From assembly GCF_014644415.1 (NCBI RefSeq), contig NZ_BMKQ01000001.1, forward strand, positions 2,679,217-2,743,216: a stretch of 64,000 nt of DNA. Reading direction: 5' to 3'. Below the pieces are notes generated by a model. That model was not told where the DNA came from and ran no database searches. It saw only the letters and a list, made by a program, of their open reading frames with translations. This document shows, piece after piece, positions 15,859 through 39,690 of the stretch; within the stretch, counting starts at the first letter, position 1, and each line of letters begins with the position of its first letter. The DNA is from Marmoricola endophyticus. GTDB taxonomy: Bacteria; Actinomycetota; Actinomycetes; Propionibacteriales; Nocardioidaceae. A program made the translations under genes and the position numbers.

Positions 15859-15875
15859 TGATCGAATCTGATCGA
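15859..15875 (+). promoter_or_regulatory. DeoR operator (autoregulatory copy)
   Basis: TGATCGA-ATC-TGATCGA, two direct half-sites with a 10-bp period. It lies just upstream of the DeoR -10 hexamer (TACGTT, 15884-15889). The same arrangement occurs before the sugar transporter and the GH2 glycosidase. Confidence 0.65.
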
Positions 15876-15883
15876 ACTCGCGC

Positions 15884-15889
15884 TACGTT
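15884..15889 (+). promoter_or_regulatory. Leaderless -10 hexamer of the DeoR gene
   Basis: TACGTT stands six bases before ATG 15896 with no ribosome-binding site between, consistent with leaderless transcription directly under the operator. Confidence 0.5.
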
Positions 15890-15895
15890 GCTCCC

Positions 15896-16696
15896 ATGTT
15901 CGCCGCCGAGCGCCAGCGCCTGATCACCGACATCGTCCACCGCGACGGCGCGGTGACGATCCACGACCTGGCAGCCGCGGTCGACGCCTCCGAGGTCACG
16001 GTGCGGCGGGACCTGCGGACCCTGGAGGAGGCGGGCCTGGTCCAGCGCCACCACGGTGGCGCGATGCCGGTCGCGCCGACCTCCGCCGAGCCGACGTACG
16101 CCGAGAAGCGGCACACGGCCAGCCGCGAGAAGGCCGCGATCGCCCAGGCCGCCGCTCGCTTCGTCCGCGACGGCGACGCGGTCGTGGTCGGCGCGGGAAC
16201 CACGACGATGGCGCTGGCGGCGGAGCTGCTGGACCGCTCCGAGCTGACGGTGATGACCAACTCCCTGCTGGTGGCGCAGGTCTTCGCGGACTCGCCGCGG
16301 ATCGAGGTGCTGCTCACCGGAGGGATGCTGCGCGGCTCCATCCTCGCGATGGTCGGCGACGTGGCCGAGACCGCGCTCGCAGGGATCAAGGCCGATGTGA
16401 CCTTCCTGTCCGGCAACGGGCTCTCAGCCGAGAACGGCCTGTCCACCCCGCACCCGATGGTCGCCAGCATCGACCGGACCATGGCGGCGGCGGGACGGGA
16501 GGTGGTGGTCGTCGCCGACCACACCAAGTTCGAGCGCGACTCGGTCGTGCAGACGGTCGGTACGACGCAGATCAGTCACCTGGTCACCGACGCCGCGGCT
16601 CCGGCGGACGAGCTCGACCGGCTGCGAGCGGCCGGCGTGGACGTCACGATCGCCGAGCAGGCGATCGTCGGCGACTCACCCCGTGGCGTTCGTTGA
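15896..16696 (+). CDS. DeoR/GlpR-family sugar regulator
   Basis: 266 aa. The N-terminal HTH (about residues 1-57) includes LITDIVHRDGAVTIHDLAAAVDASEVTVRRDLRTLEEAGLV, the DeoR signature, followed by HHGGA. The C-terminal sensor domain has the phosphosugar-binding type motifs VVGAGTTTMALA, TNSLLVA and LTGGMLRG. Such proteins are usually repressors relieved by a sugar phosphate. It is immediately upstream of, and co-directional with, a sugar ABC transporter. Its probable binding site occurs upstream of itself, of the transporter and of the GH2 glycosidase at 38.4 kb. Confidence 0.93.
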   Translation: MFAAERQRLITDIVHRDGAVTIHDLAAAVDASEVTVRRDLRTLEEAGLVQRHHGGAMPVAPTSAEPTYAEKRHTASREKAAIAQAAARFVRDGDAVVVGAGTTTMALAAELLDRSELTVMTNSLLVAQVFADSPRIEVLLTGGMLRGSILAMVGDVAETALAGIKADVTFLSGNGLSAENGLSTPHPMVASIDRTMAAAGREVVVVADHTKFERDSVVQTVGTTQISHLVTDAAAPADELDRLRAAGVDVTIAEQAIVGDSPRGVR

Positions 16697-16720
16697 CACT
16701 TTCTGATCGGTTGTGATTGA
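16693..16720 (+). promoter_or_regulatory. Promoter/operator of the sugar ABC transporter
   Basis: TTGACA (16693-16698) forms a consensus -35. The block TTGACACTTTCTGATCGG is 17/18 identical to the GH2 promoter on the other strand (38501-38518). TGATCGG-TTG-TGATTGA (16704-16720) repeats the two-half-site DeoR operator. A repressor bound here would cover the -35 to -10 spacer. Confidence 0.65.
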
Positions 16721-16768
16721 TTTTCGCGTGACGCCCACCACACTGGTGGCCGTACTCCGAGAAAGCGA

Positions 16769-17863
16769 ATGCCCATGTCTGCTCGCGCCCCCCGTCTCCG
16801 TCTCCTGCTCTCCGGCCTGGCGATCCTCGCGCTGACCGGCACCGCCGCGGCCTGCGGCAAGGCCGAGGACACCGGCGGCGGCTCGAGCGACTCCTCCGCG
16901 GCTCAGCAGGTCGTCGAGCCCGCCGACCAGAACGGCGCGCAGTGCGACCTCACGCAGTACGGCGGAGGGGTGAAGAAGCTCGACCTGAAGGACGCGACGG
17001 TCGGCTTCTCCCAGTCGGAGAAGGAGGACAACCCGTTCCGGATCGCTGAGACGAAGTCGATCGGCGACGCCGCGAAGAAGGCGGGCGTGAAGAAGTACAT
17101 CCACACCAACGCGCAGACCCAGCTGTCCAAGCAGATCTCCGACATCCAGGACATGCTCGCGCAGGGCGTCGACGCCCTGATCGTGGCGCCGCTGAACTCC
17201 GACGGGCTCGAGCCCGCGCTCAACGCCGCGAAGGCCAAGGGCGTCCCGGTGCTCACCGTCGACCGGAAGCTGACCTCGGGGGCGTGCGACACGTACGTCT
17301 CCTTCCTCGGCTCGAACTTCACCGAGCAGGGCCAGCGGGCCGCCGACCAGCTGATCAAGGGCACGGGCGGCAAGGCGAAGGTCGCGATCCTGCTCGGCGC
17401 CTCCGGCAACAACGTGACGACCGAGCGCACCAAGGGGTTCGTCGACGAGATCAAGGCCAAGGGGTCCGGGATCGACATCGTCGCCCAGCAGACCGGGGAG
17501 TTCGCCCGTGACAAGGGCCAGCAGGTCACCGAGCAGCTGCTGCAGTCGAACCCCGACATCACCGCGATCTACGCCGAGAACGACGAGATGGGCCTCGGCG
17601 CCCTGGCCGCGATCCAGGGCAGCGGCAAGCAGGCCGGCAAGGACGTGCAGATCTACTCCGTCGACGGCACCCGCAACGCGGTCCAGGAGATCGTGAACGG
17701 CGACTACAACGGCGTCGTGGAGTCCAACCCGCGCTTCGGGCCGCTGGCCTTCCAGACCCTCGAGCAGTTCCTGTCCGGCGAGAAGGTCTACGAGAACATC
17801 GTCATCAAGGACACCGAGTACGACCCCGACAACGCCGAGGACGGGCTGAGCTCCGCCTTCTGA
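16769..17863 (+). CDS. Sugar ABC transporter substrate-binding lipoprotein, YtfQ-like
   Basis: 364 aa with a lipoprotein signal (cationic n-region, hydrophobic core, lipobox TAAAC with Cys29) and a type I periplasmic-binding fold. Best remembered match is YtfQ, the galactofuranose-binding protein: VGFSQSEKEDNPFRIAETKS, QGVDALIVAPLNSDGLEPAL, VPVLTVDR and YAENDEMGLGA all align. I infer a furanose or other hexose ligand; the residues do not settle it. The start ATG 16769 gives the proper signal peptide and has AGAAAG upstream. First gene of the transporter operon, after the DeoR gene. Confidence 0.9.
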   Translation: MPMSARAPRLRLLLSGLAILALTGTAAACGKAEDTGGGSSDSSAAQQVVEPADQNGAQCDLTQYGGGVKKLDLKDATVGFSQSEKEDNPFRIAETKSIGDAAKKAGVKKYIHTNAQTQLSKQISDIQDMLAQGVDALIVAPLNSDGLEPALNAAKAKGVPVLTVDRKLTSGACDTYVSFLGSNFTEQGQRAADQLIKGTGGKAKVAILLGASGNNVTTERTKGFVDEIKAKGSGIDIVAQQTGEFARDKGQQVTEQLLQSNPDITAIYAENDEMGLGALAAIQGSGKQAGKDVQIYSVDGTRNAVQEIVNGDYNGVVESNPRFGPLAFQTLEQFLSGEKVYENIVIKDTEYDPDNAEDGLSSAF

Positions 17864-17888
17864 GTCGCGACGCCCCCGAGGAGTGTCG

Positions 17889-19463
17889 ATGACAGACGAC
17901 GTGCGTCCCCCGGTGCTCCAGGCCCAGGGGATCACCAAGGTGTTCGGTGGCGTGCGCGCCCTGTCCGGGGTGGACTTCGCCCTCGGCGAGGGGGAGGCGC
18001 ACGCCCTGGTGGGGGAGAACGGCGCCGGCAAGTCGACGCTGATCAAGGTGCTCACCGGCGTGCACCGTCCCGACGAGGGGCAGGTGCTGCTCGGTGGCGA
18101 GCCGCGCAGCTTCGGCCGACCGCTGGACGCGCAGCAGGCGGGGATCTCCACGATCTACCAGGAGGTCAACCTGATCCCGCTGATGTCGGCGGCGCAGAAC
18201 GTCTACCTCGGACGTGAGCCGCGGACCTCGTTCGGCCTGGTCGACACGCGCGCCATGGAGCGGGACGCGCGCGAGCTCCTGGACTCGTACGGCATCGACG
18301 TGGACGTACGCCGTCCGCTGCGCACGCTCGGTCTCGGTGCCCAGCAGATGGTCGCTCTCGCCCGTGCGGTCAGCATCGACGCCCGCGTGGTGATCATGGA
18401 CGAGCCGACCTCCTCGCTGGAGCCGCGCGAGGTGCGCACGCTGTTCGAGGTGATCGCCCGGCTGCGCGAGCAGGGCATCGCGATCGTCTACGTCAGCCAC
18501 CGGATGGACGAGCTGTACGAGGTGTGCGAGAAGGTCACCGTGCTCCGCGACGGCCGGCTCGTGCACACCGGCGACCTCGCCGACCTGCCGCGCCTGGAGC
18601 TCGTGGCGATGATGCTCGGTCGTACGACCTCGGAGATGTCCGGGTCGGGGGTGACCGAGTTCGGCGAGGAGGCGCACACCCAGGCCGCCGAGCCGGTGCT
18701 CGTCGCCGAGCACCTGACCCGCAAGCACGAGATCGAGGACGTCGCCCTGTCCGTACGCCCCGGTGAGGTGCTCGGCCTCGGTGGCCTGCTCGGCGCCGGA
18801 CGCAGCGAGACCCTCAAGGCGGTGGCCGGCGCGATGCCGCTGGACCGCGGGCAGGTCAGCCTCGACGGGAAGCGGGTCCGCAGCGGGTCGGTGCCGGCCG
18901 CGATCCGGGCCGGCGTCGTCCTGCTCCCCGAGGACCGCAAGGCCGAGGGGATCATCCCGAACCTGTCTGTCCGCGAGAACATCGTGCTCGCCGCGCTGCC
19001 CCGGCTGTCCCGCTTCGGGTTCACCTCGCGGCGCAAGCAGGACGCGGTCGTCCGCACGATGATGGAGCGGCTGCACATCAAGGCCTCGAGCCCCGAGCAG
19101 CCGGTGGCCGAGCTGTCCGGGGGCAACCAGCAGAAGGTGATGATCGCCCGCTGGCTCGCGATGAGCCCCCGGGTGCTGCTGCTCGACGAGCCGACCCGGG
19201 GGATCGACGTCGGCGCCAAGGCCGAGGTGCAGGCGCTGATCGACGAGCTCGCCCGCGAGGGCCTGGGCATCGTCCTGGTCTCCTCCGAGCTGGAGGAGGT
19301 CATCGAGGGCGCCGACCGGATGGTCGTGCTCAAGGACGGCGCCGTCGTCGCGGAGCTGAACGGCGAGGAGATCACCGAGGAGCGGCTGATGGCGGCCCTG
19401 TCGACCGAGACCGCACTGCCGGCGGACCCCGGCGCACCCCCCGAGGAGGCGAGCCGTGGCTGA
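17889..19463 (+). CDS. Sugar ABC transporter ATP-binding protein, two-domain RbsA/YtfR type
   Basis: 524 aa with two tandem ATPase domains, as in ribose/galactose-class importers. Domain 1 has Walker A GENGAGKST, a degenerate signature LGAQQM and Walker B VVIMDEPTSSL. Domain 2 has a divergent P-loop GLLGAGRSET, signature LSGGNQQK and Walker B VLLLDEPTRGIDVG. It energises import of the sugar bound by the upstream lipoprotein. RBS GAGGAG lies about six bases before ATG 17889; an in-frame GTG at 17883 falls inside the RBS and is less likely. The end overlaps the first permease by 8 bases. Confidence 0.95.
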   Translation: MTDDVRPPVLQAQGITKVFGGVRALSGVDFALGEGEAHALVGENGAGKSTLIKVLTGVHRPDEGQVLLGGEPRSFGRPLDAQQAGISTIYQEVNLIPLMSAAQNVYLGREPRTSFGLVDTRAMERDARELLDSYGIDVDVRRPLRTLGLGAQQMVALARAVSIDARVVIMDEPTSSLEPREVRTLFEVIARLREQGIAIVYVSHRMDELYEVCEKVTVLRDGRLVHTGDLADLPRLELVAMMLGRTTSEMSGSGVTEFGEEAHTQAAEPVLVAEHLTRKHEIEDVALSVRPGEVLGLGGLLGAGRSETLKAVAGAMPLDRGQVSLDGKRVRSGSVPAAIRAGVVLLPEDRKAEGIIPNLSVRENIVLAALPRLSRFGFTSRRKQDAVVRTMMERLHIKASSPEQPVAELSGGNQQKVMIARWLAMSPRVLLLDEPTRGIDVGAKAEVQALIDELAREGLGIVLVSSELEEVIEGADRMVVLKDGAVVAELNGEEITEERLMAALSTETALPADPGAPPEEASRG

Positions 19464-20424
19464 GGCCACCGTGACCAGTGCCCCCACCCGTTCGACCTCG
19501 GTGAGCGGCTGGCTGCGCGTCTACGGCGTGTACGCCGCCCTGGTCGTCGTCCTGGTGATCAACCTGCTCTTCACCGACAACTTCTTCGCCGTCGACAACT
19601 TCCGCATCCAGCTGGTGCAGGTCGTCCCGGTGCTCGTGGTCGCCCTGGGCATGGCCCTGGTGATCGGTACCGAGGGCATCGACCTCTCCGTCGGTGCGGT
19701 GATGGCGCTGGCGGCCGCGGTCATCCCGCTGTGGCTGGGTTACGGCGTCGTCCCGGCGGTGCTCGTCGCGCTCGTCGCCGGTCTCGTGGTGGGCCTGGTC
19801 AACGGCGGGGTGATCGCGTTCATCGGCGTGCAGCCGATCGTGGCGACCCTCGCGCTGATGGTCGGTGGCCGCGGCATCGCGCTGGTGATCTCCGGCGAGC
19901 AGCTGAAGTCGATCCAGAACCAGGACCTCCGCAGCCTCGGCACCGCGGAGGTCGCGGGGATCCCGCTGATCGTCGTGATCGCCGCGGTGCTCGCGGTGCT
20001 GGTCTGGCTGCTGGTCTCCTCGACCACGTACGGGCGCCAGCTGGTGGCGGTGGGCGGCAACCGCCGCGCCGCGGAGCTGTCCGGCCTGCCGGTCAAGCGG
20101 GTGCTGATCACGGCGTACGTCCTCTGCGCGCTGCTGGCCTCGATCGCCGGCGTGATCGGGGTGGCCCGCGCCGGGGCCAGCGTCCCCTCGACGCTGGGCA
20201 ACCTGATCGAGCTGTCCGCGATCACCGCGGTCGTCGTCGGCGGCACCCCGCTCTCGGGCGGGCAGGTCCGCGTCTGGGGCACCGTCGCCGGCGCGCTGCT
20301 GCTGCAGCTGATCGACGCGACGCTGATCAAGCACGACGTGCCCGACTCCTACTCACAGATCGTGCAGGCGGTGATCATCGTGATCGCGGTGTTCGTGCAA
20401 CGCGGCAAGGGGGTGCGCTCGTGA
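19456..20424 (+). CDS. Sugar ABC transporter permease 1 (YtfT-like)
   Basis: 322 aa inner-membrane permease of the ribose/galactofuranose class, about eight to ten helices. GTEGIDLSVGAVMALAA and GGTPLSGGQVRVWGT are the hallmark BPD_transp_2 motifs, and GGNRRAAELSGLPVKRVL is the cytoplasmic coupling region that meets the ATPase. GTG 19456 overlaps the ATPase gene by eight bases. It probably forms a heterodimer with the next permease. Confidence 0.94.
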   Translation: MAEATVTSAPTRSTSVSGWLRVYGVYAALVVVLVINLLFTDNFFAVDNFRIQLVQVVPVLVVALGMALVIGTEGIDLSVGAVMALAAAVIPLWLGYGVVPAVLVALVAGLVVGLVNGGVIAFIGVQPIVATLALMVGGRGIALVISGEQLKSIQNQDLRSLGTAEVAGIPLIVVIAAVLAVLVWLLVSSTTYGRQLVAVGGNRRAAELSGLPVKRVLITAYVLCALLASIAGVIGVARAGASVPSTLGNLIELSAITAVVVGGTPLSGGQVRVWGTVAGALLLQLIDATLIKHDVPDSYSQIVQAVIIVIAVFVQRGKGVRS

Positions 20425-21428
20425 GCGCGCCGACCACGGCGTCGACCGTCGATGCCGGGGCCGCCGCCCCGACCAGGCGTCGCGGGGAGGCGGTCGCCGA
20501 GCTGTTCTCCCAGCACGGCGCGGTCGCCGTCCTCGTGCTGCTGCTGGTCGTCGGGTCGCTGGCCTTCGACACCTTCGGCACGGTCGACAACCTCTCCAAC
20601 GTCGCGGTGCAGGGCTCCTTCCTCGCAATCGTCGCGCTCGGGGTCACCTTCGTCATCCTCACCGGCGGCATCGACCTCTCCGTGGGGTCGGTCTTCGCGC
20701 TCGGCGGCGTGCTCGCGGCGTACGGTTCCGGCGGCGGGTGGCTCACCGCGATCCTGCTGCCGGTCGCGGTCGGTGCGCTGATCGGCCTGGTCCAGGGCGG
20801 GCTGGTGGCCTACGCCGGGATGGCGCCGTTCATCGTCACCCTCGCCGGGCTGCTCGGTGCCCGCGGGCTGGTCTTCGCGATCACCGACGAGGGAAACACG
20901 ACGCCGAAGGTGAAGTCCGAGGCGTTCGTGTCGCTGGGTCAGGGACACGTCTGGGAGGCGACCTGGCCGGTCGTCATCATGCTGGCGCTGTTCGCCGTCG
21001 GCTGGGTGGTGCGCCAGCGCAGCCGGGCGGGCCAGGTGGTGGTGGCCACCGGAGGCGGCGAGGACGCCTCGCGGCTGATGGGCCTGCCCGTCGCGCGGGT
21101 GAAGCTCGGGGTGTACGTCGCATCCGGCATGCTCGCCGCGTTCGCCGGCGCCCTCAACGCCGCTCGGTCCTCCTCGGGGGTCACCACGGTCGGGGTCGGC
21201 ATGGAGCTGGAGGCGATCTCCGCGGTCGTCATCGGCGGCACGCTGCTCTCCGGCGGGCGGGGCAACGTCACGGGGACCCTCGCCGGCGTCTACCTGCTGG
21301 GTGTCATCCAGAACCTGATCAACCAGGTCGGCAGTCTCACCAGCTCGATCCAGTCCGTGGTGAGCGGCGGGTTCCTGCTGGTGGTCGTGATCCTGCAGAC
21401 GCTGCTGAGCCCGAGCCGCAAGACCTAG
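20421..21428 (+). CDS. Sugar ABC transporter permease 2 (YjfF-like)
   Basis: 335 aa from GTG 20421 (GTGA overlap with permease 1). Same family: LTGGIDLSVGSVFALGG, GGGEDASRLMGLPVARVK and IGGTLLSGGRGNVTGT. Having two non-identical permeases after a single binding protein and fused ATPase is the YtfQ-YtfR-YtfT-YjfF layout, which supports the galactofuranose-type assignment over plain ribose systems that have one permease. It is the last gene of the operon and faces the minus-strand gene at 21483. Confidence 0.93.
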   Translation: MSAPTTASTVDAGAAAPTRRRGEAVAELFSQHGAVAVLVLLLVVGSLAFDTFGTVDNLSNVAVQGSFLAIVALGVTFVILTGGIDLSVGSVFALGGVLAAYGSGGGWLTAILLPVAVGALIGLVQGGLVAYAGMAPFIVTLAGLLGARGLVFAITDEGNTTPKVKSEAFVSLGQGHVWEATWPVVIMLALFAVGWVVRQRSRAGQVVVATGGGEDASRLMGLPVARVKLGVYVASGMLAAFAGALNAARSSSGVTTVGVGMELEAISAVVIGGTLLSGGRGNVTGTLAGVYLLGVIQNLINQVGSLTSSIQSVVSGGFLLVVVILQTLLSPSRKT

Positions 21429-21461
21429 CTGTCCTCAGTGAGGGCCGTCGGTCCACGCCAC

Positions 21462-21481
21462 CGTGCCGTGCCGTCGGCACG
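21462..21481. terminator. Hairpin between convergent genes
   Basis: CGTGCCG (21462-21468), a six-base loop, and CGGCACG (21475-21481) form a perfect 7-bp stem between the permease stop and the stop of the minus-strand unknown gene. No U-tract, as usual in this GC range. Confidence 0.5.
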
Positions 21482-21482
21482 C

Positions 21483-21857
21483 TCAGCGCCAGCGGAGTCC
21501 CTCGAGGAAGCGTCGGTAGAGCCCGCCCTTGACCGGCAGTGCCGGCTCGGGTGGCGGGGTCGTGCTCGTCCGCGTCGCGATCGGCGCGTCGTAGTCCGTG
21601 CTGCGGATCGCATCGACGACCTCGTCCTCGTCGAAGTCCGCCGAGCCGGGGATCTCGGGGACGTAGCCGACGAGCATCCCGTCGCGCATGACGTTGGCCT
21701 CCAGCGACGCGGTGCCGTCGGCGTCCCAGATCGCCTCGCGCTTGCCGGGGAGCTTCACGGTGACGCCGAACTGGCGTACGCCCACCCGGGCGAGATCGGC
21801 GTCCGTGCCGAGCTCGCGGAGCCGGTCGACGACGCGTCGGGCCTTCATCTCCTCCAT
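21483..21857 (-). CDS. Hypothetical protein, 124 aa
   Basis: I do not recognise this family. The protein is soluble, mixed charge, with no membrane segment. Notable stretches are VRQFGVTVKLPGKREAIWDADG and a C-terminal Pro/Thr linker leading to GGLYRRFLEGLRWR. Coding is supported by a clean actinobacterial codon pattern and by TAGGCT six bases before ATG 21857, a leaderless -10 geometry. An alternative ATG three codons later has GGAG before it. It sits between the sugar transporter and a LysR gene and shows no functional link to either. Confidence 0.7.
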   Translation of the reverse strand: MEEMKARRVVDRLRELGTDADLARVGVRQFGVTVKLPGKREAIWDADGTASLEANVMRDGMLVGYVPEIPGSADFDEDEVVDAIRSTDYDAPIATRTSTTPPPEPALPVKGGLYRRFLEGLRWR

Positions 21858-21863
21858 CCGACG

Positions 21864-21869
21864 AGCCTA
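21864..21869 (-). promoter_or_regulatory. Leaderless -10 hexamer of the 124-aa gene
   Basis: TAGGCT on the minus strand, then six bases, then ATG 21857. Confidence 0.45.
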
Positions 21870-21937
21870 GGCAGGCCACCCACGGGCATCAGGTCGAGGA
21901 GCCCGGCCGATGACCGGTGTCCCTCGCGCGCGCCGGC

Positions 21938-22876
21938 TCAGGACGTCCGTGCCTCGAGGGGGCTGCCGTAGCCCTTCCAGCCGGCGAAGTCGGCGAAGGC
22001 CTCTGCGTTGCGTCGCCACGCAGCGACATCGTTCGGGCTGCGGTGCTCACGCGGCCACATCATCATCACCGGCACGGTGGCCACCTCGTCGACGAGGTCG
22101 ACGAGCACCAGCCCGTCCGGGCGAAGGAACCGGCAGGACTCCGGGCGGATCGCCAGGACGTCGCCGCTGAGACGGGTGAGGATCCGCTGTCCCGGGATGG
22201 GGTTGTGCACGATCCGGGGCGTGCACCCCCCCGCGCGGCAGATGCTGAGCAGCAGGTCGTGGTAGAGCGGGGCGAGCTCGCGCGGCCAGAACATGATCTG
22301 CTCGCCGTCCAGGTCGGCGAGCCTGAGCGAGGTCCGCCCAGCGAGCGGGTGGTCCTCGCCGAGCGTGGCGACCAACCCCTCGTGGCGCAGGACGATCGCT
22401 TCCATGTCGTCTGGAGGGTCGAAGACCCGGCCGATGGCGACGTCGAACGCCCGTGTCCTCAGACCCGCGACGACGTCCCGACCCCACGTCTCGCGCGCGA
22501 GCACCTCGACGTCGGGGTTGTGGTGGCGGAAGCGCGAGACGAGGCCGGGCACCACGTCGTACCCGGTGCTGACGGTGTACGCCACGCGGAGCTCGTCCGT
22601 GCGACCCGACGACAGCGCGGACGCGCGCGAGGCGAAGTTCTCCTGCGCGGAAACCAGGGCCATCGCCGTCGGGACCAGCTCGCGGCCCTGGAAGGTGAGC
22701 TCGACCCGCCTGGTGGTGCGGTCGAACAGGCGCATGCCCACCTTCTCCTCCAGCCGCGCGATGCGTTGGCTCAACGCCGGCTGGGCGATGAACAGGCGCT
22801 CAGCCGCTCGGCGGAAGTTCAGCTCGTCGGCGAGTACGAGGAAGGTCCGCACCAGCGGGAGCTCGACGTCCTGCAT
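21938..22876 (-). CDS. LysR-family transcriptional regulator
   Basis: 312 aa. The N-terminal winged HTH reads LVRTFLVLADELNFRRAAERLFIAQPALSQRIARLEEKVGMRLFDRTTRRVELT, a textbook LysR domain; the C-terminal two-lobed effector domain follows from about residue 95. It is divergent from the ABC transporter/catabolic operon starting at 23001, the usual place for the pathway activator, so its co-inducer is probably the imported compound or an intermediate. TAGCCT six bases before ATG 22876 suggests leaderless expression. Its C-terminal WPREHRSPND motif is not diagnostic for a ligand. Confidence 0.93.
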   Translation of the reverse strand: MQDVELPLVRTFLVLADELNFRRAAERLFIAQPALSQRIARLEEKVGMRLFDRTTRRVELTFQGRELVPTAMALVSAQENFASRASALSSGRTDELRVAYTVSTGYDVVPGLVSRFRHHNPDVEVLARETWGRDVVAGLRTRAFDVAIGRVFDPPDDMEAIVLRHEGLVATLGEDHPLAGRTSLRLADLDGEQIMFWPRELAPLYHDLLLSICRAGGCTPRIVHNPIPGQRILTRLSGDVLAIRPESCRFLRPDGLVLVDLVDEVATVPVMMMWPREHRSPNDVAAWRRNAEAFADFAGWKGYGSPLEARTS

Positions 22877-22882
22877 GGCGCC

Positions 22883-22888
22883 AGGCTA
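22883..22888 (-). promoter_or_regulatory. Leaderless -10 hexamer of the LysR gene
   Basis: TAGCCT on the minus strand six bases before ATG 22876. The 124-base gap to 23001 also holds an AT-rich stretch (TTATCAATGAA, 22908-22918) that could be part of a LysR site for the divergent operon; that is speculative. Confidence 0.4.
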
Positions 22889-24706: not shown

Positions 24707-24737
24707 AGGCCCGTCCCCACCCATCCAAGGAGAATTG

Positions 24738-30875: not shown

Positions 30876-32059
30876 GCCGACCGCTCGAGGGGATCCTGGT
30901 CGCCGACTTCAGCCGGGTGCTGGCAGGCCCGTTGGCCACGGTCACCCTCGCCGACCTCGGCGCCACCGTGGTCAAGGTCGAACGGCCGGGCAGCGGCGAC
31001 GACACCCGCCAGTGGGGCCCGCCGTGGACGGAGAGCTCGAGCTCGTACTTCGAGTCGGCCAACCGCGGCAAGCGCTCGGTGTGCCTCGACCTCGACGACG
31101 ACGACGACCTGGTGCTCGCGCGCGAGCTGGCGCTGCGCGCCGACGTGCTGGTGGAGAACTTCGCCTCCGGCACGATGCGTCGCCGTGGGCTCGACCAGGC
31201 GGCTCTCACCGAGATCAACCCGGGCCTGGTCTACGCATCGGTCTCGGGCTTCGGGTCCGCCGAGGGTGCCGGGCGCCCGGGGTACGACTTCTTGGTGCAG
31301 GCCGTCGGCGGGCTGATGAGCATCACCGGCCCGCCAGAGGAGCCGAGCAAGGTCGGCGTCGCCCTGGTCGACGTGCTCACCTCGAAGGATCTGGTGATCG
31401 GGGTCCTCGCTGCGTTACACGAGCGCGAGACCAGCGGACGTGGTCAGCTCGTGGAGGTCAATCTGCTCTCCAGCCTGCTCGGGTCGATGGCCAACCAGGC
31501 GTCCGGCTACCTCACCACCGGTCGGGATCCCTCCAGCATGGGCAACGCACACCCGTCCATCGCCCCGTACGAGACGCTGCGGGCAGCTGACGGTGCCCTC
31601 GCGATCGCCTGCGGCAACGACCGCCAGTTCGCCTCGCTGGCCGAAGCCCTCGGCGTGCCCGGGCTGGCCGAGGACCCGCGCTTCGCCACCAACCGCGACC
31701 GCGTGGCCCACCGTCCCGCGATGGTCGCCGCACTCGAGTCCGCGCTCGCGACGGACACTGTCGACCACTGGGTCGAGGCTGTCGGTCTTTCGCGCGTGCC
31801 CTGCGGGCGGGTCGGCAGCCTGGCCGACGGGTTCCGGCTGGCCGACGAACTCGGGCTGGACCCGGTCAGCGAGGTCGGCGACGGCGGCATCCCCCAGGTA
31901 CGCAGCCCGCTGTGGCTCGGTCGTACCCCGGTCGGTGAACCCACCCGGCCGCCCCGGCTGGGCGAGCACGACGACGAGGTGCGCCGCTGGCTGCAGGTCC
32001 CCCGATCCACCCCCGAGACGACCACCCCACACCCGAGAGTGACGGAGCACGACCGATGA
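30872..32059 (+). CDS. Family III (CaiB/BaiF) acyl-CoA transferase
   Basis: 395 aa. N-terminal LEGILVADFSRVLAGPLATVTLADLGATVVKVERPG and VENFASGTM are family III hallmarks, and the aspartate in RPGYDFLVQAVGG matches the catalytic Asp of formyl-CoA transferase. It moves CoA between carboxylic acids without ATP. Followed directly by a glutaryl-CoA dehydrogenase-like gene, it most likely makes glutaryl-CoA or a close analogue, with succinyl-CoA as a plausible donor. GTG 30872 overlaps the aldehyde dehydrogenase by 4 bases. Confidence 0.92.
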   Translation: MSRPLEGILVADFSRVLAGPLATVTLADLGATVVKVERPGSGDDTRQWGPPWTESSSSYFESANRGKRSVCLDLDDDDDLVLARELALRADVLVENFASGTMRRRGLDQAALTEINPGLVYASVSGFGSAEGAGRPGYDFLVQAVGGLMSITGPPEEPSKVGVALVDVLTSKDLVIGVLAALHERETSGRGQLVEVNLLSSLLGSMANQASGYLTTGRDPSSMGNAHPSIAPYETLRAADGALAIACGNDRQFASLAEALGVPGLAEDPRFATNRDRVAHRPAMVAALESALATDTVDHWVEAVGLSRVPCGRVGSLADGFRLADELGLDPVSEVGDGGIPQVRSPLWLGRTPVGEPTRPPRLGEHDDEVRRWLQVPRSTPETTTPHPRVTEHDR

Positions 32060-33246
32060 GCGCGAACGCCACGACGACCCCGTTGGACCCGATCGACCTG
32101 ATCGGCGTCGACGACCAGCTCACCGACCAGGAGAAGGACGTCCGCTCGGCGGTGCGCCGGCTGTGCGCGGCCAGCGTCGAGCCGTACGTCGCGGGCTGGT
32201 TCGAGCGCGGCCACATCGACGACGTGCGGGGCCTGGCCAAGGAGCTCGGCTCGCTCGGCCTGCTGGGCATGCACCTGGAGGGGTACGGCTGTGCCGGGAT
32301 GACCGCGACCGAGTATGGCCTGGCCTGCCTGGAGCTGGAGGCCGCCGACTCGGGGATCCGCTCGCTGGTCTCGGTCCAGGGGTCGCTGGCGATGTTCGCG
32401 ATCCACCACTGGGGCTCGGAGGAGCAGAAGACCGAGTGGCTGCCGCAGATGGCCTCCGGCGAGGCGATCGGCTGCTTCGGGCTCACCGAGCCCGACGTGG
32501 GGTCTGACCCGCAGTCGATGCAGACCCGTGCCTGGCGCGACGGCGACGACTGGGTCGTGCGCGGGCGCAAGATGTGGATCACGAACGGGTCGGTCGCCTC
32601 GGTCGCCGTCGTCTGGGCGCAGACCGAGGAGGGGGTGCGCGGCTTCGTCGTCCCGACCTCGACGCCGGGGTTCTCCGCGCCCGAGATCCACCACAAGCAG
32701 TCTCTGCGGGCCTCGGTGACCAGCGAGCTGGTGCTCGAGGACGTACGGCTGCCGGCCTCGGCACAGCTGCCGAAGGCCCACGGGCTCCGCGGCCCGCTGA
32801 GCTGCCTGAACGAGGCCCGCTACGGGATCGTGTGGGGCGCGATGGGCGCCGCGCGCTCCTCGCTGGAGGCGGCGCTGTCGTACGCCGGCGAGCGGGTGCA
32901 GTTCGGCCGGCCGATCTCCGGCTTCCAGCTGACCCAGCAGAAGCTGGTCGACATGGAGCTGGAGTACACCAAGGGGGTCCTCCTCGCACTGCACCTCGGC
33001 CGGCGCAAGGACGCCGGCACGCTCCGCCCGGAGCAGGTCAGCGCGGGCAAGCTGAACAACGTGCGTGAGGCGCTGGAGATCTGCCGTACGGCGCGGACGG
33101 TGATGGGGGCGAACGGGATCTCCCTGGAGTACCCGGTGATGCGCCACGCGAACAACCTCGAGGCCGTGCTCACCTACGAAGGCACCTCGGAGATGCACAC
33201 GCTGGTGCTCGGGCAGGCGATGACCGGTCAGGCGGCGTTCCGGTGA
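32056..33246 (+). CDS. Acyl-CoA dehydrogenase, glutaryl-CoA dehydrogenase-like
   Basis: 396 aa flavoprotein of the acyl-CoA dehydrogenase fold. The FAD/substrate loop GCFGLTEPDVGSDPQSMQTRA, WITNGSVASVAVVWAQT and the catalytic glutamate in LTYEGTSEMHTLVLGQAMTG resemble glutaryl-CoA dehydrogenase more than short-chain enzymes. It would convert glutaryl-CoA to crotonyl-CoA plus CO2. It stands between a CoA transferase and a 3-hydroxyacyl-CoA dehydrogenase, consistent with a glutarate-type lower pathway, although no enoyl-CoA hydratase or thiolase gene is present here. ATGA and GTGA overlaps at both ends. Confidence 0.93.
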   Translation: MSANATTTPLDPIDLIGVDDQLTDQEKDVRSAVRRLCAASVEPYVAGWFERGHIDDVRGLAKELGSLGLLGMHLEGYGCAGMTATEYGLACLELEAADSGIRSLVSVQGSLAMFAIHHWGSEEQKTEWLPQMASGEAIGCFGLTEPDVGSDPQSMQTRAWRDGDDWVVRGRKMWITNGSVASVAVVWAQTEEGVRGFVVPTSTPGFSAPEIHHKQSLRASVTSELVLEDVRLPASAQLPKAHGLRGPLSCLNEARYGIVWGAMGAARSSLEAALSYAGERVQFGRPISGFQLTQQKLVDMELEYTKGVLLALHLGRRKDAGTLRPEQVSAGKLNNVREALEICRTARTVMGANGISLEYPVMRHANNLEAVLTYEGTSEMHTLVLGQAMTGQAAFR

Positions 33247-34106
33247 CGCCGATCGAGCGGGTGGGCGTCGTCGGCTGCGGGCTGATGGGCGCCGGGATCG
33301 CGGAGGTCTCGGCCCGATCCGGGCTGGACGTGGTCGTGGTGGAGTCCGAGTCCGCGGCCGCGGCCCGCGGCCGCGAGCGGCTGGAGGCCTCACTGAAGCG
33401 CGCCGAGTCCAAGGGCAAGCTCGGGCAGGAGACGACCGAGGCGGTCCTCGCGCGGGTCACCGTGGACTGCGAGCTGGACGCGTTGGCGGACCGGGAGGTG
33501 GTCGTCGAGGCGATCGGGGAGGACGAGGCGGCCAAGGTCGAGCTGTTCCGCACGCTGGACCGGATCGTGTCGTCACCCAAGGCGATCCTGGCCTCCAACA
33601 CCTCCTCGATCCCGATCATGAAGCTGGGCGTCGCCACCTCACGGCCCGAGCAAGTCCTGGGCGTGCACTTCTTCAACCCGGTGCCGGTGTTGCCGCTGGT
33701 GGAGCTGGTGCCCTCGCTGCTCACCTCGTCGCAGACCACCGAGCGTGCTCGTGCTCTGGTCACCGACCAGCTCGGCAAGCAGGCGATCGACAGCCAGGAC
33801 CGGGCCGGCTTCGTGGTCAACGCGCTGCTGATCCCGTTCGTCCTCTCGGCGATCCGGATGTACGAGTCGGGCTTCGCCTCCGCCGGGGACATCGACCGCG
33901 GTCTGGTCCTCGGCGCCGCACACCCGCAGGGCCCGCTGGCCCTGGCCGACCTGATCGGACTGGACACCACCCAGGCGGTGGCGCTCTCGCTGTATGAGGA
34001 GTTCAAGGAGCCGCTCTACGCTCCTCCGCCGCTGCTGGCGCGGATGGTGGACGCCGGGCTGCTGGGCCGCAAGAGCGGCCACGGGTTCTTCACCTACGAG
34101 GGCTGA
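33243..34106 (+). CDS. 3-hydroxybutyryl-CoA dehydrogenase
   Basis: 287 aa NAD(P)-dependent dehydrogenase. The Rossmann site is VGVVGCGLMGAGIAEV, followed by SNTSSIPI, the catalytic histidine in GVHFFNPVPVLPLVELV and the C-terminal domain marker GFVVNALLIPF..AIRMYE. It oxidises 3-hydroxybutyryl-CoA (or a related acyl-CoA) to the 3-keto form, the expected step after crotonyl-CoA hydration. GTG 33243 overlaps the acyl-CoA dehydrogenase. It is the last gene of the operon; its stop lies in a hairpin shared with the converging regulator gene. Confidence 0.94.
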   Translation: MTPIERVGVVGCGLMGAGIAEVSARSGLDVVVVESESAAAARGRERLEASLKRAESKGKLGQETTEAVLARVTVDCELDALADREVVVEAIGEDEAAKVELFRTLDRIVSSPKAILASNTSSIPIMKLGVATSRPEQVLGVHFFNPVPVLPLVELVPSLLTSSQTTERARALVTDQLGKQAIDSQDRAGFVVNALLIPFVLSAIRMYESGFASAGDIDRGLVLGAAHPQGPLALADLIGLDTTQAVALSLYEEFKEPLYAPPPLLARMVDAGLLGRKSGHGFFTYEG

Positions 34107-34120
34107 CCCGGGCGGTCAGC
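34102..34120. terminator. Hairpin spanning two convergent stop codons
   Basis: GCTGACC (34102-34108), loop CGGGC, GGTCAGC (34114-34120): a perfect 7-bp stem. The stem itself contains the TGA of the plus-strand dehydrogenase and the TGA of the minus-strand XRE gene. Confidence 0.55.
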
Positions 34121-34955
34121 GCTCGGCGGCGAGCGGACCGGCCATGTGGAGCAGAGCGAGCGCGTCGGCCGAGGGTGATCCCGCGGGCGCGGTGTAGAGC
34201 ACGAGGTGCTGGTCGCTCTCCTCGAGCAGCAGGGAGTCGCAGTCGACGGTGACCGAGCCGACGGCGGGGTTCTCGAAGGTCTTGGTGAGCATCGCGGCGG
34301 GCTGGACGTCGTGACGTCGCCAGAGCCGCTCGAAGTCGGGGGCGGTGCGGAGGTCGTCGAGCAGGCTCACGACGTCGGGGTCGGTGGGGTAACGGGTCGC
34401 CGTGGCGCGCAGCTGCATCACCGCGTGGTGGCGGAACGCCGTCGCGTCGGAGACGCCGTACAGGTGGTCGGGCCCGGCCGGGTCGAGGAACGCCCGCCGG
34501 GCGAGGTTGCGCTGCGCCGGGACGAGCGAGCCGAAGTCCTCCATGAGCGCGGCGGCGAGCTCGTTCCAGGCGAGCACCTCGAAGTCCGCCGCGATCACGA
34601 AGCCCGCGGTCCGGGGGAGGCGCTCGAGCATCGTCAGCACGCTGGGGCGCACGTCGCGGCACACCAGTCGGCGACGCGTCGGCGCGGTCCCCGCGAGCAG
34701 GTGCAGGTGGTCGGACTCGGTGTCGGTCAGCAGCAGGGCCCCGGCGATGCCGGCCAGCACCTCGGCGGAGGGTCGCGGCGCGCGGGCCTGCTCGAGGCGG
34801 ACGTAGTACTCGGTCGAGATGTGCGCGAGCACGGCCACCTCCTCGCGCCGCAGACCGGGTGTACGACGGCGCGGGCCCGAGGCCAGTCCGACGTCCTCCG
34901 GGCGCAGCCGCTCGCGTCGGCTGCGCAGGAAGTCCGCGAGGTCGGCCTTGTCCAC
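34116..34955 (-). CDS. XRE-family regulator with MmyB-like ligand domain (copy 1)
   Basis: 279 aa from GTG 34955; another GTG at 34988 is possible, but 34955 aligns with the paralogue's MDRERLADFLRRRRE start. The N-terminal HTH reads LADFLRSRRERLRPEDVG..RRRTPGLRREEVAVLAHISTEYYVRLEQAR, then a PAS-like MmyB ligand domain with LAWNELAAALMEDF. Such proteins commonly control an adjacent divergent short-chain dehydrogenase gene, here at 35042. A second regulator/SDR pair of the same arrangement lies at 41380-43099. Confidence 0.9.
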   Translation of the reverse strand: MDKADLADFLRSRRERLRPEDVGLASGPRRRTPGLRREEVAVLAHISTEYYVRLEQARAPRPSAEVLAGIAGALLLTDTESDHLHLLAGTAPTRRRLVCRDVRPSVLTMLERLPRTAGFVIAADFEVLAWNELAAALMEDFGSLVPAQRNLARRAFLDPAGPDHLYGVSDATAFRHHAVMQLRATATRYPTDPDVVSLLDDLRTAPDFERLWRRHDVQPAAMLTKTFENPAVGSVTVDCDSLLLEESDQHLVLYTAPAGSPSADALALLHMAGPLAAER

Positions 34956-35041
34956 GACGACAGTGTGCCCCGAGGTGGGCGTCCGCACCCTGGTACAGCT
35001 TGTGCCTGCCTCACCGGTCCGCCGGGAGCCACGGTGGTGCC

Positions 35042-35821
35042 ATGACTCAGACCACGCACCTCCCCATCGGCCTGCTCACCGGCAAGATCGTGCTCGTCAC
35101 CGGCGCGAGCCGCGGCATCGGCGCCGCGGCCGCGCGGCTCTTCGCGGCGGAGGGCGCCCGTGTCGTGCTCGCCTCCCGCGGCACCGCGGCGCTCGGCGCC
35201 CTGGTCACCGAGATCCGCGACCAGGGCGGGACCGCCGACGCGGTCGCGCTTGACCTGGCCGACCGCGCCGGCGTTCGCGCGGCCGTGGCACGGGTCGGTG
35301 AGCTGCACGGACGGCTCGACGGCGCCTTCAACAACGGTGCGGCCATCCAGACGCCCGGTCCGCTGGACGAGACCAGCGATGAGGACGTCGAGCAGCAGTT
35401 CGAGGTGAACTTCCGCGCACACTGGGTCGCGATGAAGGCGGAGGCAGCGCTGATGCGTCAGGTCGGTGGCGGAGCCATCGTCAACACCTCCAGCATCGGC
35501 AGCCGGCGGGCGAACCCGGTGCTGCCGGCGTACGGGGCGATGAAGCGGGCGCTGAACAGCCTCACCGAGTCCGCTGCGGTCACCTGGGCGCGCGACGGGA
35601 TCCGCGTCAACGCGCTCACGCCGGGCGGGACGACGACGGAGATGATCGACGCGTGGGAGAGCGCCACGCCAGGCGTCGTGGAGCAGATCACCGCCTCCTC
35701 GCCGATGGGCCGGATGGCCGAGCCGGTCGAGGTGGCCCAGGCGGCGGCCTGGCTGCTCAGCGACCGGGCCTCGATGGTGACCGGCGCGATCGTGCCGGTC
35801 GACGGGGGCGCCGGGGCCTGA
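35042..35821 (+). CDS. Short-chain dehydrogenase/reductase
   Basis: 259 aa classical SDR. TGASRGIGAAAARLFAAEGA is the dinucleotide-binding motif, NNGAAI the NNAG equivalent, and NTSSIG...YGAMKRA carries the Ser/Tyr/Lys triad; the C-terminal PVDGGAGA is typical. NAD(P)-dependent oxidation or reduction of an unknown carbonyl or alcohol substrate. It is divergent from the XRE/MmyB-like regulator, which probably represses it. The transcript ends in a strong hairpin at 35839. Confidence 0.93.
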   Translation: MTQTTHLPIGLLTGKIVLVTGASRGIGAAAARLFAAEGARVVLASRGTAALGALVTEIRDQGGTADAVALDLADRAGVRAAVARVGELHGRLDGAFNNGAAIQTPGPLDETSDEDVEQQFEVNFRAHWVAMKAEAALMRQVGGGAIVNTSSIGSRRANPVLPAYGAMKRALNSLTESAAVTWARDGIRVNALTPGGTTTEMIDAWESATPGVVEQITASSPMGRMAEPVEVAQAAAWLLSDRASMVTGAIVPVDGGAGA

Positions 35822-35838
35822 TCGGCGGTGCCCGGAGC

Positions 35839-35881
35839 ACGTCGAGGCCCCGGCCGGCGTACCGGACCGGGGCCTCGACGT
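35839..35881. terminator. Strong bidirectional hairpin terminator
   Basis: ACGTCGAGGCCCCGG (35839-35853) and CCGGGGCCTCGACGT (35867-35881) are perfect 15-base inverted repeats around a 13-base loop, between the convergent SDR and GH2 stop codons. Confidence 0.75.
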
Positions 35882-35888
35882 GGTCGTG

Positions 35889-38423
35889 CTACTTGACCTG
35901 GCCCACCTCCGAGTCGGACAGGGCGCGGTCGAAGACCGTCACCTGGTCCACGGCGCCCTTGAGCCGGTCGACGGGGTTCCCGTCGTACTTCGCGCGGCCC
36001 ACGGCCAGCGGCCCGGTGGACTCGTCGCCCAGGCACTGGCCGAACGAGCCCTGCTTCTCGCCGTCGACGTAGAGCGTGTACGTCTGGGCGGCGGCGTCGC
36101 GGACCCCGACCAGGTGGTACCACTGGCCCGCCTTCGCCGTGGTGTCGGCGTAGGCCCGGCCGCTCTTTGTCGAGAAGGCGAACTTGTTCGCCCCGCCGTC
36201 GTACTGCAGGAAGAACGCCGAGGCCTGGTCACCGTCCTGGCTGACCGCGGTCTGGAAGCCGCCGCCGGTGGCGTCGAGCTTGACCCAGGCCGAGACCGAG
36301 AAGTTCTTCGTGGTGTCCACGACCGGCTTCGCCGACTCCGCGGCACCGGTGCCGTCGAAGGACAGCGCGTTGCCCTCGACGCCGGCGGTGCGGCCGACCC
36401 CGCCCGAGGTGGTCAGGTCGGCCGAGCCGACCCCGTCCGCCACGGTCGTCCCCGACGCCTCGTCCGCGGCGTAGGCGTGGGTGCCGCCCAGCCCCGGGGT
36501 GCCCGGCGGGTACGACGTCGGTGGCACGCCGAGGTTGCCGGACGCGGAGAGCGCCTCGTTGATCCGGCGCACCGGGTTGGCCCGCATCTTCAGCTGCTTG
36601 CGGTCGTAGGTGTAGAGCCCGTTGACCTCGTCCTCGACGTCGGTGATCTGGGTGTAGATCCCGCCCGAGAGGCCGCACTTCTCGCTGTACTCCAGCAGCT
36701 TGCGCTGGTTGGCGACGTAGAGGTCGGTGAGCTCCTCCTTGCTCTTGGCCATCTGGTACGCGCCCGGCTGTCCCGGCCACACGTGCCCGGGGACGACCAG
36801 TCCGAAGCCACCGTGCTCGCCGTCGATCGCGGCGCGGTCGGCGGTCGGGCTGGGGCTGGCCGGGCCGGTGTAGGTGTGCCAGTCGATGACGTCGCCCTTG
36901 CCGGAGTCGCCGTGGGAGTTGCAGCAGTTGACGCCGGAGTGCGCGTCGACCAGCCGGGTCGGGTCCATGGCCTTGACCATGTCGGCGACCTCGCCGGTGC
37001 CCTCGCTGCTCCACTCGCCCCAGCCCTCGTTGAACGGCACCCAGCCGATGATCGAGGTGTCGCCGCGGTGCTGGGCGATGATCTGGCGCAGCTCGGACTT
37101 GTAGGCGTCCTGCACGGCCCTGGGCGGCTCGCCGTCGTTGAGCGAGGGCATGTCCTGCCAGACCAGGAGTCCGAGCTTGTCGGCGTGGTAGTACCACCGG
37201 TCCGGCTCGACCTTGATGTGCTTGCGGACCGCGTTGAAGCCGAGCTTCTTGTGCGCCTGCAGGTCGAAGGCGAGCGCCTCGTCGGTCGGCGCGGTGTAGA
37301 TGCCGTCGGGCCAGTAGCCCTGGTCGAGGGTCGCGTTGAGGAACACCGGCTTGCCGTTGAGCACGATGTGCTGCTTGCCGTCGGCGCCCTTCTGGGTCGC
37401 GATGGTCCGCAGCCCGGCGTACGAGGAGACGGTGTCGGCGCGCTTGCCACGGTCCTTGAGGACCACCGTGAAGTCGTAGAGGTGTGGGTCGTCCGGGGTC
37501 CAGAGATGGGGATCGCGGATCTTCAGGCTGAGCGGGTAGTCGCCCGCGCCGGAGGCCTGGCCGACCTTCTTGCCGTCGTCGTACGCCGTGACGGTGACCT
37601 GCGGGTTCTTCGCGCCGGCGGTGTTCACGCGGACGTTGAAGCCCTGTCGGTTCTGCTGGGTCGTGGCGACGACCTGCTCGACGTGCGCGGTGCGCACCGG
37701 CTCCATCCAGACGGTCTGCCAGATGCCGGAGGCGGGGACGTACTCGATGCCGCCGGGCGAGTCGATGGCCCGCACCCGCTGCTTGCCGACCGGCTGCTGC
37801 TTGGGGTCGGTGTAGTCGGTGACGGCGACCACGAGCTCCTGCGGGCCGGACCTGGTGAGGGCGTCGGTGACGTCGGCGCTGAACGCCTCGTACCCGCCCT
37901 TGTGCGTGGCGACCTGCTGGCCGTTGACCCAGACGCGTGCCTGGTAGTCGACGGCGCCGAAGTGCAGCAGCAGCCGGTTGGCGGCGTTGGTCCGCCACGA
38001 CGCCGGCACCTCGAAAGTGCGGCGGTAGATCATGTGGTCCTCGTGGCGCTGGATGCCCGAGAGCGCGGACTCGATCGGGTACGGCACCAGCACGCGCTCG
38101 CCGAGGTCCTGGCCGAAGTCCGGGCGGGTCGCGGCCGAGGCCGCAGCGGCGAACTGCCACTCGCCGTTGAGGTTCTGCCACGCCGAGCGGGTCATCTGGG
38201 GGCGGGGGTACTCCGGGAGCGCGTTGTCGGCGGAGACGTCCTTGGTCCAGGGGGTGGTCAGCGGCGGTGTCTTCGGCGTCAGGTCGGCCTTGGCGGCGCG
38301 GTCGGGTGCGGCGCCGGTCGCCGGCGCCTGGGTGGCTCCGAGGCCGGCGGACAGGACGACGGCGACCGCGGCGGCGACCCCTGTCCACCTCCGGCGACCT
38401 CGGCGTGGTGCGGACAGATGCAT
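35889..38423 (-). CDS. Secreted glycoside hydrolase family 2 enzyme with C-terminal LamG domain
   Basis: 844 aa from ATG 38423, chosen for its RBS (GGGAGGAG) and because it begins a proper export signal (Arg-rich n-region, hydrophobic core, Ala-rich cleavage region). GH2 sugar-binding, immunoglobulin-like and TIM-barrel domains follow. The acid/base is Glu466 in VPFNEGWGEW, and the probable nucleophile Glu536 in DGEHGGFG. From about residue 645 a laminin-G/concanavalin-like domain (FSVSAWVKLD, AGQWYHLVGVRD, YTLYVDGEKQG) likely binds carbohydrate. Beta-galactosidase, beta-glucuronidase or beta-galactofuranosidase are possible. Its promoter shares the DeoR motif of the sugar transporter. Confidence 0.92.
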   Translation of the reverse strand: MHLSAPRRGRRRWTGVAAAVAVVLSAGLGATQAPATGAAPDRAAKADLTPKTPPLTTPWTKDVSADNALPEYPRPQMTRSAWQNLNGEWQFAAAASAATRPDFGQDLGERVLVPYPIESALSGIQRHEDHMIYRRTFEVPASWRTNAANRLLLHFGAVDYQARVWVNGQQVATHKGGYEAFSADVTDALTRSGPQELVVAVTDYTDPKQQPVGKQRVRAIDSPGGIEYVPASGIWQTVWMEPVRTAHVEQVVATTQQNRQGFNVRVNTAGAKNPQVTVTAYDDGKKVGQASGAGDYPLSLKIRDPHLWTPDDPHLYDFTVVLKDRGKRADTVSSYAGLRTIATQKGADGKQHIVLNGKPVFLNATLDQGYWPDGIYTAPTDEALAFDLQAHKKLGFNAVRKHIKVEPDRWYYHADKLGLLVWQDMPSLNDGEPPRAVQDAYKSELRQIIAQHRGDTSIIGWVPFNEGWGEWSSEGTGEVADMVKAMDPTRLVDAHSGVNCCNSHGDSGKGDVIDWHTYTGPASPSPTADRAAIDGEHGGFGLVVPGHVWPGQPGAYQMAKSKEELTDLYVANQRKLLEYSEKCGLSGGIYTQITDVEDEVNGLYTYDRKQLKMRANPVRRINEALSASGNLGVPPTSYPPGTPGLGGTHAYAADEASGTTVADGVGSADLTTSGGVGRTAGVEGNALSFDGTGAAESAKPVVDTTKNFSVSAWVKLDATGGGFQTAVSQDGDQASAFFLQYDGGANKFAFSTKSGRAYADTTAKAGQWYHLVGVRDAAAQTYTLYVDGEKQGSFGQCLGDESTGPLAVGRAKYDGNPVDRLKGAVDQVTVFDRALSDSEVGQVK

Positions 38424-38500
38424 GACGGCTCCTCCCGAGCGCCGGGACCCCGGCGGTGGTCTGCTGTGACGAGCGACACAGTGCTCTGATCCAAGCAACT

Positions 38501-38548
38501 CCGATCACAAAGTGTCAATGATCGCGGGCAAACGATCAGAACTGATCA
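38501..38548 (-). promoter_or_regulatory. GH2 glycosidase promoter with DeoR-type operators
   Basis: On the minus strand TTGACACTTTGTGATCGG (38518-38501) matches the sugar-transporter promoter in 17 of 18 positions and includes a consensus -35. Just upstream, 38532-38548 read on the minus strand gives TGATCAG-TTC-TGATCGT, the same two-half-site operator with 10-bp period. Confidence 0.65.
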
Positions 38549-39682: not shown

Positions 39683-39690
39683 CGTAGGCA

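Follow-up and report, generated by a model that had tools for sequence, protein, structure and literature searches.

We have analysed a stretch of 64,000 nucleotides from Marmoricola endophyticus (contig NZ_BMKQ01000001.1, positions 2,679,217 to 2,743,216), referred to below as the window, in which a gene for a DeoR-family regulator is followed by the four genes of a CUT2 sugar importer (16769-21428), and a gene for a glycoside hydrolase of family 2 (GH2) lies farther along on the other strand (35889-38423). An earlier interpretation made from the letters of this DNA, here called the sequence-only reading, had proposed that the three form one regulon, with cleavage by the GH2 enzyme coupled to import by a YtfQRT-YjfF-like system. 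We think it likely that they do make up one local D-galactofuranose (D-Galf) regulon, the sugar, which is probably D-Galf, being a point that we add. The genes are:

15896..16696, + strand: DeoR-family regulator of 266 residues, with HTH_DeoR and DeoRC sensor domains (Pfam)
16769..17863, + strand: sugar-binding protein (SBP) of the CUT2 importer, nearest GafA/YtfQ; Peripla_BP_4, 185.5 bits
17883..19463, + strand: twin-domain ATP-binding cassette (ABC) ATPase, YtfR-like; best NCBIfam match YtfR, 575 bits, cut-off 850
19456..20424, + strand: permease 1, RbsC/YtfT-like; BPD_transp_2, 127.5 bits; RbsC 183.3 and YtfT 182.8 bits, both below cut-off
20421..21428, + strand: permease 2, YjfF-like; BPD_transp_2, 131.3 bits; best NCBIfam match YjfF, 212.9 bits, cut-off 363
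35889..38423, - strand: GH2 protein ending in a LamG domain; predicted to be a secreted exo-beta-D-galactofuranosidase, related to PDB 9J6M/9J6N (subfamily GH2_18)

The regulator passes the Pfam cut-offs comfortably, with 160.6 bits for DeoRC (cut-off 31.8) and 56.1 bits for HTH_DeoR (cut-off 21). With PADLOC the DeoR protein gives weak helix-turn-helix (HTH) matches only, and the GH2 protein one low match.

Operator sites and promoters

The motif TGATCRR-N3-TGATYGW had been reported at the promoters of deoR, the importer and GH2, and all three sites are confirmed. As the 17-bp pattern TGATCRRNNNTGATYGW it occurs without mismatch at three places in the window, which are 15859-15875 (+), 16704-16720 (+) and 38532-38548 (-), and in 100 shuffled windows the mean is 0.00 and the largest count 0. 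A scan of the whole genome (3,657,555 bases in 22 contigs) finds these same three as the sole exact matches, so that the frequent random matches by which the sequence-only reading would have been refuted do not occur, and the pattern read backwards gives 0. Across the other 23 genomes of the genus, whose rounded sizes add up to about 89 Mb, there is 1 match in total, which corresponds to about 0.04 expected in the M. endophyticus genome. The sites and the promoter elements around them are:

15859..15875, + strand: candidate DeoR operator of the deoR promoter, TGATCGAATCTGATCGA, in which the half-site TGATC recurs after 10 bp; second in the matrix ranking given below
15884..15889, + strand: possible -10 hexamer of deoR, TACGTT, 6 nt before the ATG, as judged from the sequence
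16693..16698, + strand: -35-like TTGACA of the importer operon, overlapping the deoR stop codon
16704..16720, + strand: candidate DeoR operator of the importer promoter, TGATCGGTTGTGATTGA, just downstream of TTGACA; first in the matrix ranking
38501..38507, - strand: operator half-site TGATCGG of the GH2 promoter, after TTGACA and spaced as at the importer
38513..38518, - strand: -35-like TTGACA of the GH2 gene, from the sequence
38532..38548, - strand: candidate DeoR operator upstream of the GH2 promoter, TGATCAGTTCTGATCGT; third in the matrix ranking

Because the motif itself had been derived from the three sites, the counts for window, genome and genus are partly circular. We made a weight matrix from seven sites in the related genomes G053, G336 and G337 and in a Micromonospora locus (L121), with none from the window. 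This out-of-window matrix ranks the importer site first in the window (25.9), the deoR site second (22.0) and the GH2 site third (21.4), with the fourth place scoring only 14.4. Among other loci, 1.89 Mb in all, 0 places score as high as the importer site, 1 as high as the deoR site and 2 as high as the GH2 site. That background is not a clean null, since one of the two places at the GH2-site score, L145:5513, sits just before a related binding-protein gene, and the 12 best background places include it, L033:14313, which is also before such a gene, and L127:9865, which is before a GH2 gene. The sites at L145:5513 and L033:14313 are TGTTC-type repeats in genomes with no close match to this DeoR, and they are possibly the operator of a more distant DeoR type.

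Weak matches carry little meaning, as there are 110 places in the M. endophyticus genome with up to 2 mismatches to the motif; the four sites with 1 mismatch score only 10.8-13.3 with the out-of-window matrix. The simpler pattern TGATC-N5-TGATY occurs 7 times in that genome, comprising the three sites, three occurrences in one tandem repeat and one that scores low. At G000:C2:255947-255981 (L055) in the same genome the 10-bp unit TGATCCCCCC is present four times in tandem. In another genome, G006, there is at L040:9806-9833 a strong TGATC direct repeat with an overlapping second site on the opposite strand, and at the thresholds given below G006 has neither this DeoR nor this GH2.

The segments 16693-16710 and 38518-38501 (minus strand) are, as had been reported, identical at 17 of 18 bases. 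The likeness thus stands, but the segment, TTGACACTTTSTGATCGG, is not the separate second motif that it had been taken for, being a -35-like hexamer that runs into an operator half-site. The arrangement TTGACA-N5-TGATC is found at 5 places in four whole genomes (M. endophyticus, G053, G336 and G337), which are one importer promoter in each and the M. endophyticus GH2 promoter. In the aligned importer promoters of the four, TTGACA, the TGATC five bases on, GTGA and TGATT are invariant (4/4). A -35-like TTGACA with an operator half-site at a fixed distance after it suggests repression by occlusion. At the GH2 promoter the full site is upstream of TTGACA and the half-site downstream.

The importer promoters of G053, G336 and G337 have the operator where the window has it. 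In the deoR promoter of G053 there is TGATC-N5-TGATC at the same place as in the window, and in G336 and G337 one half-site is TGTTC. The -10-like hexamer is at an equal distance from the start codon in all three (TACGTT in G053, TAACGT in G336, TAGCGT in G337), and its position 6 nt before the ATG in the window and likewise in the relatives fits a leaderless transcript, which is likely for deoR.

Conservation and gene clustering

The family was searched in 341 genomes, with thresholds of E <= 1e-60 for DeoR, E <= 1e-120 for GH2 and E <= 1e-75 for SBP, and there are 6 carriers of DeoR, 8 of GH2 and 18 of SBP. The SBP is present in 7 of the 8 GH2 genomes as against 11 of the 333 without GH2 (Fisher p 2.5e-9, or 4.1e-8 if the M. 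endophyticus genome is left out). In the GH2 genome that has no SBP, G339, the GH2 gene is on a 5-kb contig. The genes are contiguous in G336 and G337, in the order deoR, SBP, ATPase, permease, permease, GH2, and in G088, G108 and G259 a more distant DeoR (36-40% identical), the importer and GH2 are together. G053 has its GH2 on a separate 3.6-kb contig, and G328 and G329 have deoR and the importer, with GH2 not on the stretch.

Beyond the family we looked at the best 80 of 584 GH2 relatives in a collection of named genomes, in which some genomes occur twice and some loci are cut by contig ends. In 29 of these 80 loci there is an SBP (>150 bits) within 10 kb, in Amycolatopsis, Actinoallomurus, Kibdelosporangium, Streptomyces, Micromonospora and others, and locus L069 has two permeases only. 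As a control, eight other stop-free reading frames of the window were sought near the same 80 loci, and at the same score seven gave 0/80 and one, an ATPase, 1/80; of the control frames, that at 39679-40812 is of unverified status and another is just 143 residues long. Two of the 16 query proteins used for the loci (x27997 and NDR14913) had a wrong reading frame and were left out.

In the Micromonospora locus (L121) a DeoR gene whose product is 59% identical is divergent to GH2, and between them is TGATCGGATCTGATCGA, an exact match to the consensus of the sequence-only reading. We placed the start of this DeoR by homology, and the first start codon in its frame lies farther upstream. The proposal of one regulon is thus well supported by the out-of-window matrix, by conserved operators at orthologous promoters and by the Micromonospora site, and the coupling of GH2 cleavage to import by the contiguity in relatives, the 29 of 80 loci and the distribution of SBP among the family genomes.

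The GH2 enzyme

The best solved relatives of the GH2 protein are the beta-D-galactofuranosidase chains 9J6N (564 bits) and 9J6M (562 bits), the next being 7SF2 (443 bits). Chain 9J6M is placed in subfamily GH2_18, with Fujio et al. 2024 cited for the enzyme of Streptomyces sp. JHA19 (PMC12243196). The JHA19 enzyme ORF1110 hydrolyses p-nitrophenyl-beta-D-Galf, none of nine pyranosides and no L-arabinofuranose (Araf) substrate, and frees galactose from Aspergillus galactomannan (PMC4560423). As 17 of 18 mutated ORF1110 residues match the letters of 9J6N at an offset of 23, we infer that 9J6N is ORF1110. All nine of the residues (Asp or Glu) for which the alanine mutant of ORF1110 had <35% activity (PMC4560423) are conserved in the window enzyme, and with the score to 9J6N this indicates kinship with GH2_18.

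The catalytic part is 51.3% identical to 9J6N (293 of 571 aligned residues). The two enzymes differ at the C-terminus, where ORF1110 has an AbfB domain, which it does not need for activity (PMC4560423), and the window enzyme has LamG (residues 691-840, Pfam). The N-terminus looks by eye like a signal peptide. A plain beta-galactosidase or beta-glucuronidase was considered and rejected, as the two nearest solved chains are those of the galactofuranosidase and the protein falls short of the LacZ, GalA and glucuronidase equivalog cut-offs. The available part of PMC4560423 mentions no regulon or importer for ORF1110.

The importer

With regard to the importer, the Gaf/YtfQRT-YjfF systems of E. coli, Shewanella ANA-3 and M. 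smegmatis have the same make-up of a binding protein, a twin ATPase and two different permeases, and are the best-scoring relatives of the window SBP, ATPase and permease 2, with permease 1 in a near tie with the ribose permease. Against solved chains the SBP scores 183.2 bits with GafA of M. smegmatis, 152.6 with GafA of Shewanella, 147.5 with YtfQ and 141.5 with a ribose-type binder.

The pocket residues of the SBP were mapped by hand, from the sequence alignments and the residue numbers given in PMC10191376. The YtfQ pair Arg38/Asp111 is kept as R91/D165. Glu94 occupies the place of Phe40 in Shewanella GafA, a protein that binds arabinofuranose only and in which Phe40 is thought to shut out D-Galf (PMC10191376). 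The pocket would thus allow D-Galf, although it is no proof of it. We had at one stage placed an Asn at the GafA selectivity Asp position, and dropped this because the numbering of PMC10191376 identifies that residue with the conserved Asp in the DR motif.

Links to L-arabinose genes are known for many Gaf importers, and some of these importers bind both sugars; the survey of about 100 Gaf homologues reports none that is directly linked to genes of D-galactose catabolism (PMC10191376). In contrast the window importer is linked to a predicted galactofuranosidase.

A probable galactofuranose regulon

Galactofuranose occurs in fungal galactomannan, in mycobacterial arabinogalactan and on fungal and bacterial surfaces, and to our knowledge is absent from mammals. 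We suggest that without the sugar DeoR would sit on the tandem TGATC half-sites (10-bp period), which lie across or next to the three promoters, and would block RNA polymerase. When glycans bearing Galf are present, such as fungal galactomannan or actinobacterial galactan, the GH2-LamG enzyme, once secreted, would remove beta-D-Galf one residue at a time from non-reducing ends, and the freed Galf would pass through the importer, presumably still as the furanose. A sugar or sugar phosphate derived from it could then bind the DeoRC domain as inducer and lift repression, including that of deoR itself.

The intracellular route is predicted in outline only. There is a galactokinase gene in the genome. 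In 3 of 9 related importer loci whose stretch has no GH2, an aldose 1-epimerase gene adjoins the importer or the regulator gene, in keeping with a sugar that needs a change of ring or anomeric form:

L139:11035-11949: aldose 1-epimerase gene
L143:10902-11822: aldose 1-epimerase gene
L037:6995-7909: aldose 1-epimerase gene

Several observations weigh against this interpretation. The importer proteins are far below the NCBIfam equivalog cut-offs (179 of the 510 bits for NF041827, 575 of 850 for NF041861, 182.8 of 535 for NF041862 and 212.9 of 363 for NF008630), and the SBP has Phe90 in place of the pocket Trp (mapped as above, on PMC10191376); in both respects it differs from the Gaf systems. 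The SBP is only somewhat nearer to GafA/YtfQ than to the ribose-type binder, and with so narrow a margin sequence alone is a weak guide to the ligand. For the enzyme, 8 of the 9 other mutated ORF1110 residues are conserved as well, which makes the conservation of the critical ones less telling. A galT gene was not found in the M. endophyticus genome with TIGR00209 alone, a model that matches 5 of 14 control genomes. When sigma-70 promoters were sought strictly, neither of the places scanned had a complete one, so that the -10 elements are unproven. In the relatives, GH2 is missing at the threshold in 11 of the 18 SBP-bearing family genomes, 51 of the 80 GH2 loci have no SBP within 10 kb, and there is no TGATC tandem repeat within 170 bases upstream of GH2 in G336 and G337, where this gene follows the importer genes directly.

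The regulator also differs beyond close relatives, being a DeoR 36-40% identical or of LacI type. The gene order was compared in seven of the named-genome loci, and five have a LacI-type regulator (in Amycolatopsis, Kibdelosporangium and three Streptomyces) as against DeoR in L121, so the regulator appears to have been exchanged between lineages; in L079 no regulator was identified. The LacI-type genes by the importer are:

L061:4221-5219: LacI-type regulator
L066:4245-5240: LacI-type regulator
L076:19118-20194: LacI-type regulator
L091:1717-2772: LacI-type regulator
L104:17807-18838: LacI-type regulator

The best of the alternatives, although an unlikely one, is that the regulon is real and serves L-Araf or mixed furanoses, with GH2 freeing L-Araf from plant arabinans and the importer taking up L-arabinose. 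It draws on the L-arabinose links and dual binding of Gaf importers noted above, and on the GH2_18/GH2_19 group, which includes alpha-L-arabinofuranosidases (PMC12243196). However the nearest characterised enzyme cuts Galf and not Araf (PMC4560423), the genome has no match to araA (PF02610), other arabinose routes not having been searched, and there is no araBAD-type enzyme among the 20 window proteins scanned.

It is less probable still that DeoR controls only itself and the importer, the GH2 promoter having been copied or moved from the importer locus and now being under other control or none. The near-identity of the two promoters over 18 bases would be explained, and the position of GH2 directly after the importer in G336 and G337 fits a displaced gene with a copied promoter. 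But the GH2 promoter has in 38532-38548 a second full site, different in sequence and scoring well with the out-of-window matrix, and Micromonospora carries such a site between deoR and GH2. It is very improbable that the TGATC repeats arose by chance or from base composition in AT-richer promoters and have no common binding protein. Some effect of composition is indicated, and this is a further point against our interpretation, since in 3 of 200 trials column-permuted matrices placed at least 2 of their top 3 window matches in these promoters; and one strong site is in G006, which at the thresholds has no deoR or GH2 match. Against this, the sites are unique genome-wide and are conserved at the same promoters in three genera of the family as well as in Micromonospora, and direct repeats of this period have been described for DeoR-family operators (PMC3870299).

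We thus retain the D-Galf regulon as the preferred interpretation. On balance we also lean, by a small margin, to the broader view that dedicated scavenging of D-Galf is widespread in Actinomycetota, with GH2_18 and an own branch of Gaf-like importer capturing the furanose before the pyranose forms, and with the regulator swapped between lineages.

Relation to known systems

The operators predicted for the DeoR-family regulator RhaR of Chloroflexus and Rhizobium are direct repeats of 10-11 bp (PMC3870299), and the form in the window, direct repeats of such a period at the regulator's own and target promoters, is that of the DeoR family. The RhaR regulons are also alike in being local sugar-uptake regulons under a DeoR-type regulator. 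They differ in half-site and target genes, and there are no rhamnose genes among the window proteins scanned. A literature search for a known TGATC or tandem-repeat DeoR operator gave only PMC3870299, in which the half-sites are others.

Galactofuranosidases and furanose importers are each known, and the parts are of known kinds, but their link looks undescribed. Our literature search (titles and the starts of abstracts, among the matches listed, with few subscription journals) found no regulon joining a galactofuranosidase to a transporter or regulator. If correct, the regulon would give both parts a physiological setting, predict which ligand a branch of actinobacterial binding proteins takes, and offer a DeoR operator that can be tested.

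Intervening genes and further GH2 loci

About 14.5 kb of other genes separate the end of the importer (21428) from the 3' end of GH2 (35889). In the frames scanned, which are part of the total, there are genes for a LysR regulator, an Ssu/Tau-type importer, and RidA-like, amidohydrolase, dihydrodipicolinate synthase (DHDPS)-like, flavin reductase-like, aldehyde dehydrogenase, acyl-CoA dehydrogenase and hydroxyacyl-CoA dehydrogenase proteins. The segment 21438-35821 has the look of a catabolic cluster of the organic-acid or aromatic type, and the proteins scanned in it include none from sugar genes. As GH2 is directly after the importer in two relatives, the simplest reading is that it became separated in the M. 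endophyticus lineage, with a promoter of its own.

A GH2 relative in the same genus, 42% identical, is at L039:9049-10806 (G001), and the match contains one TGA stop. In Streptomyces hydrogenans the segment L091:7145-15666 has, next to each other, two GH2 proteins related to the predicted galactofuranosidase (54% and 48%), and in another Streptomyces locus a gene for a GH43 enzyme, a possible second furanosidase, is between GH2 and the importer (L076:12425-13930).

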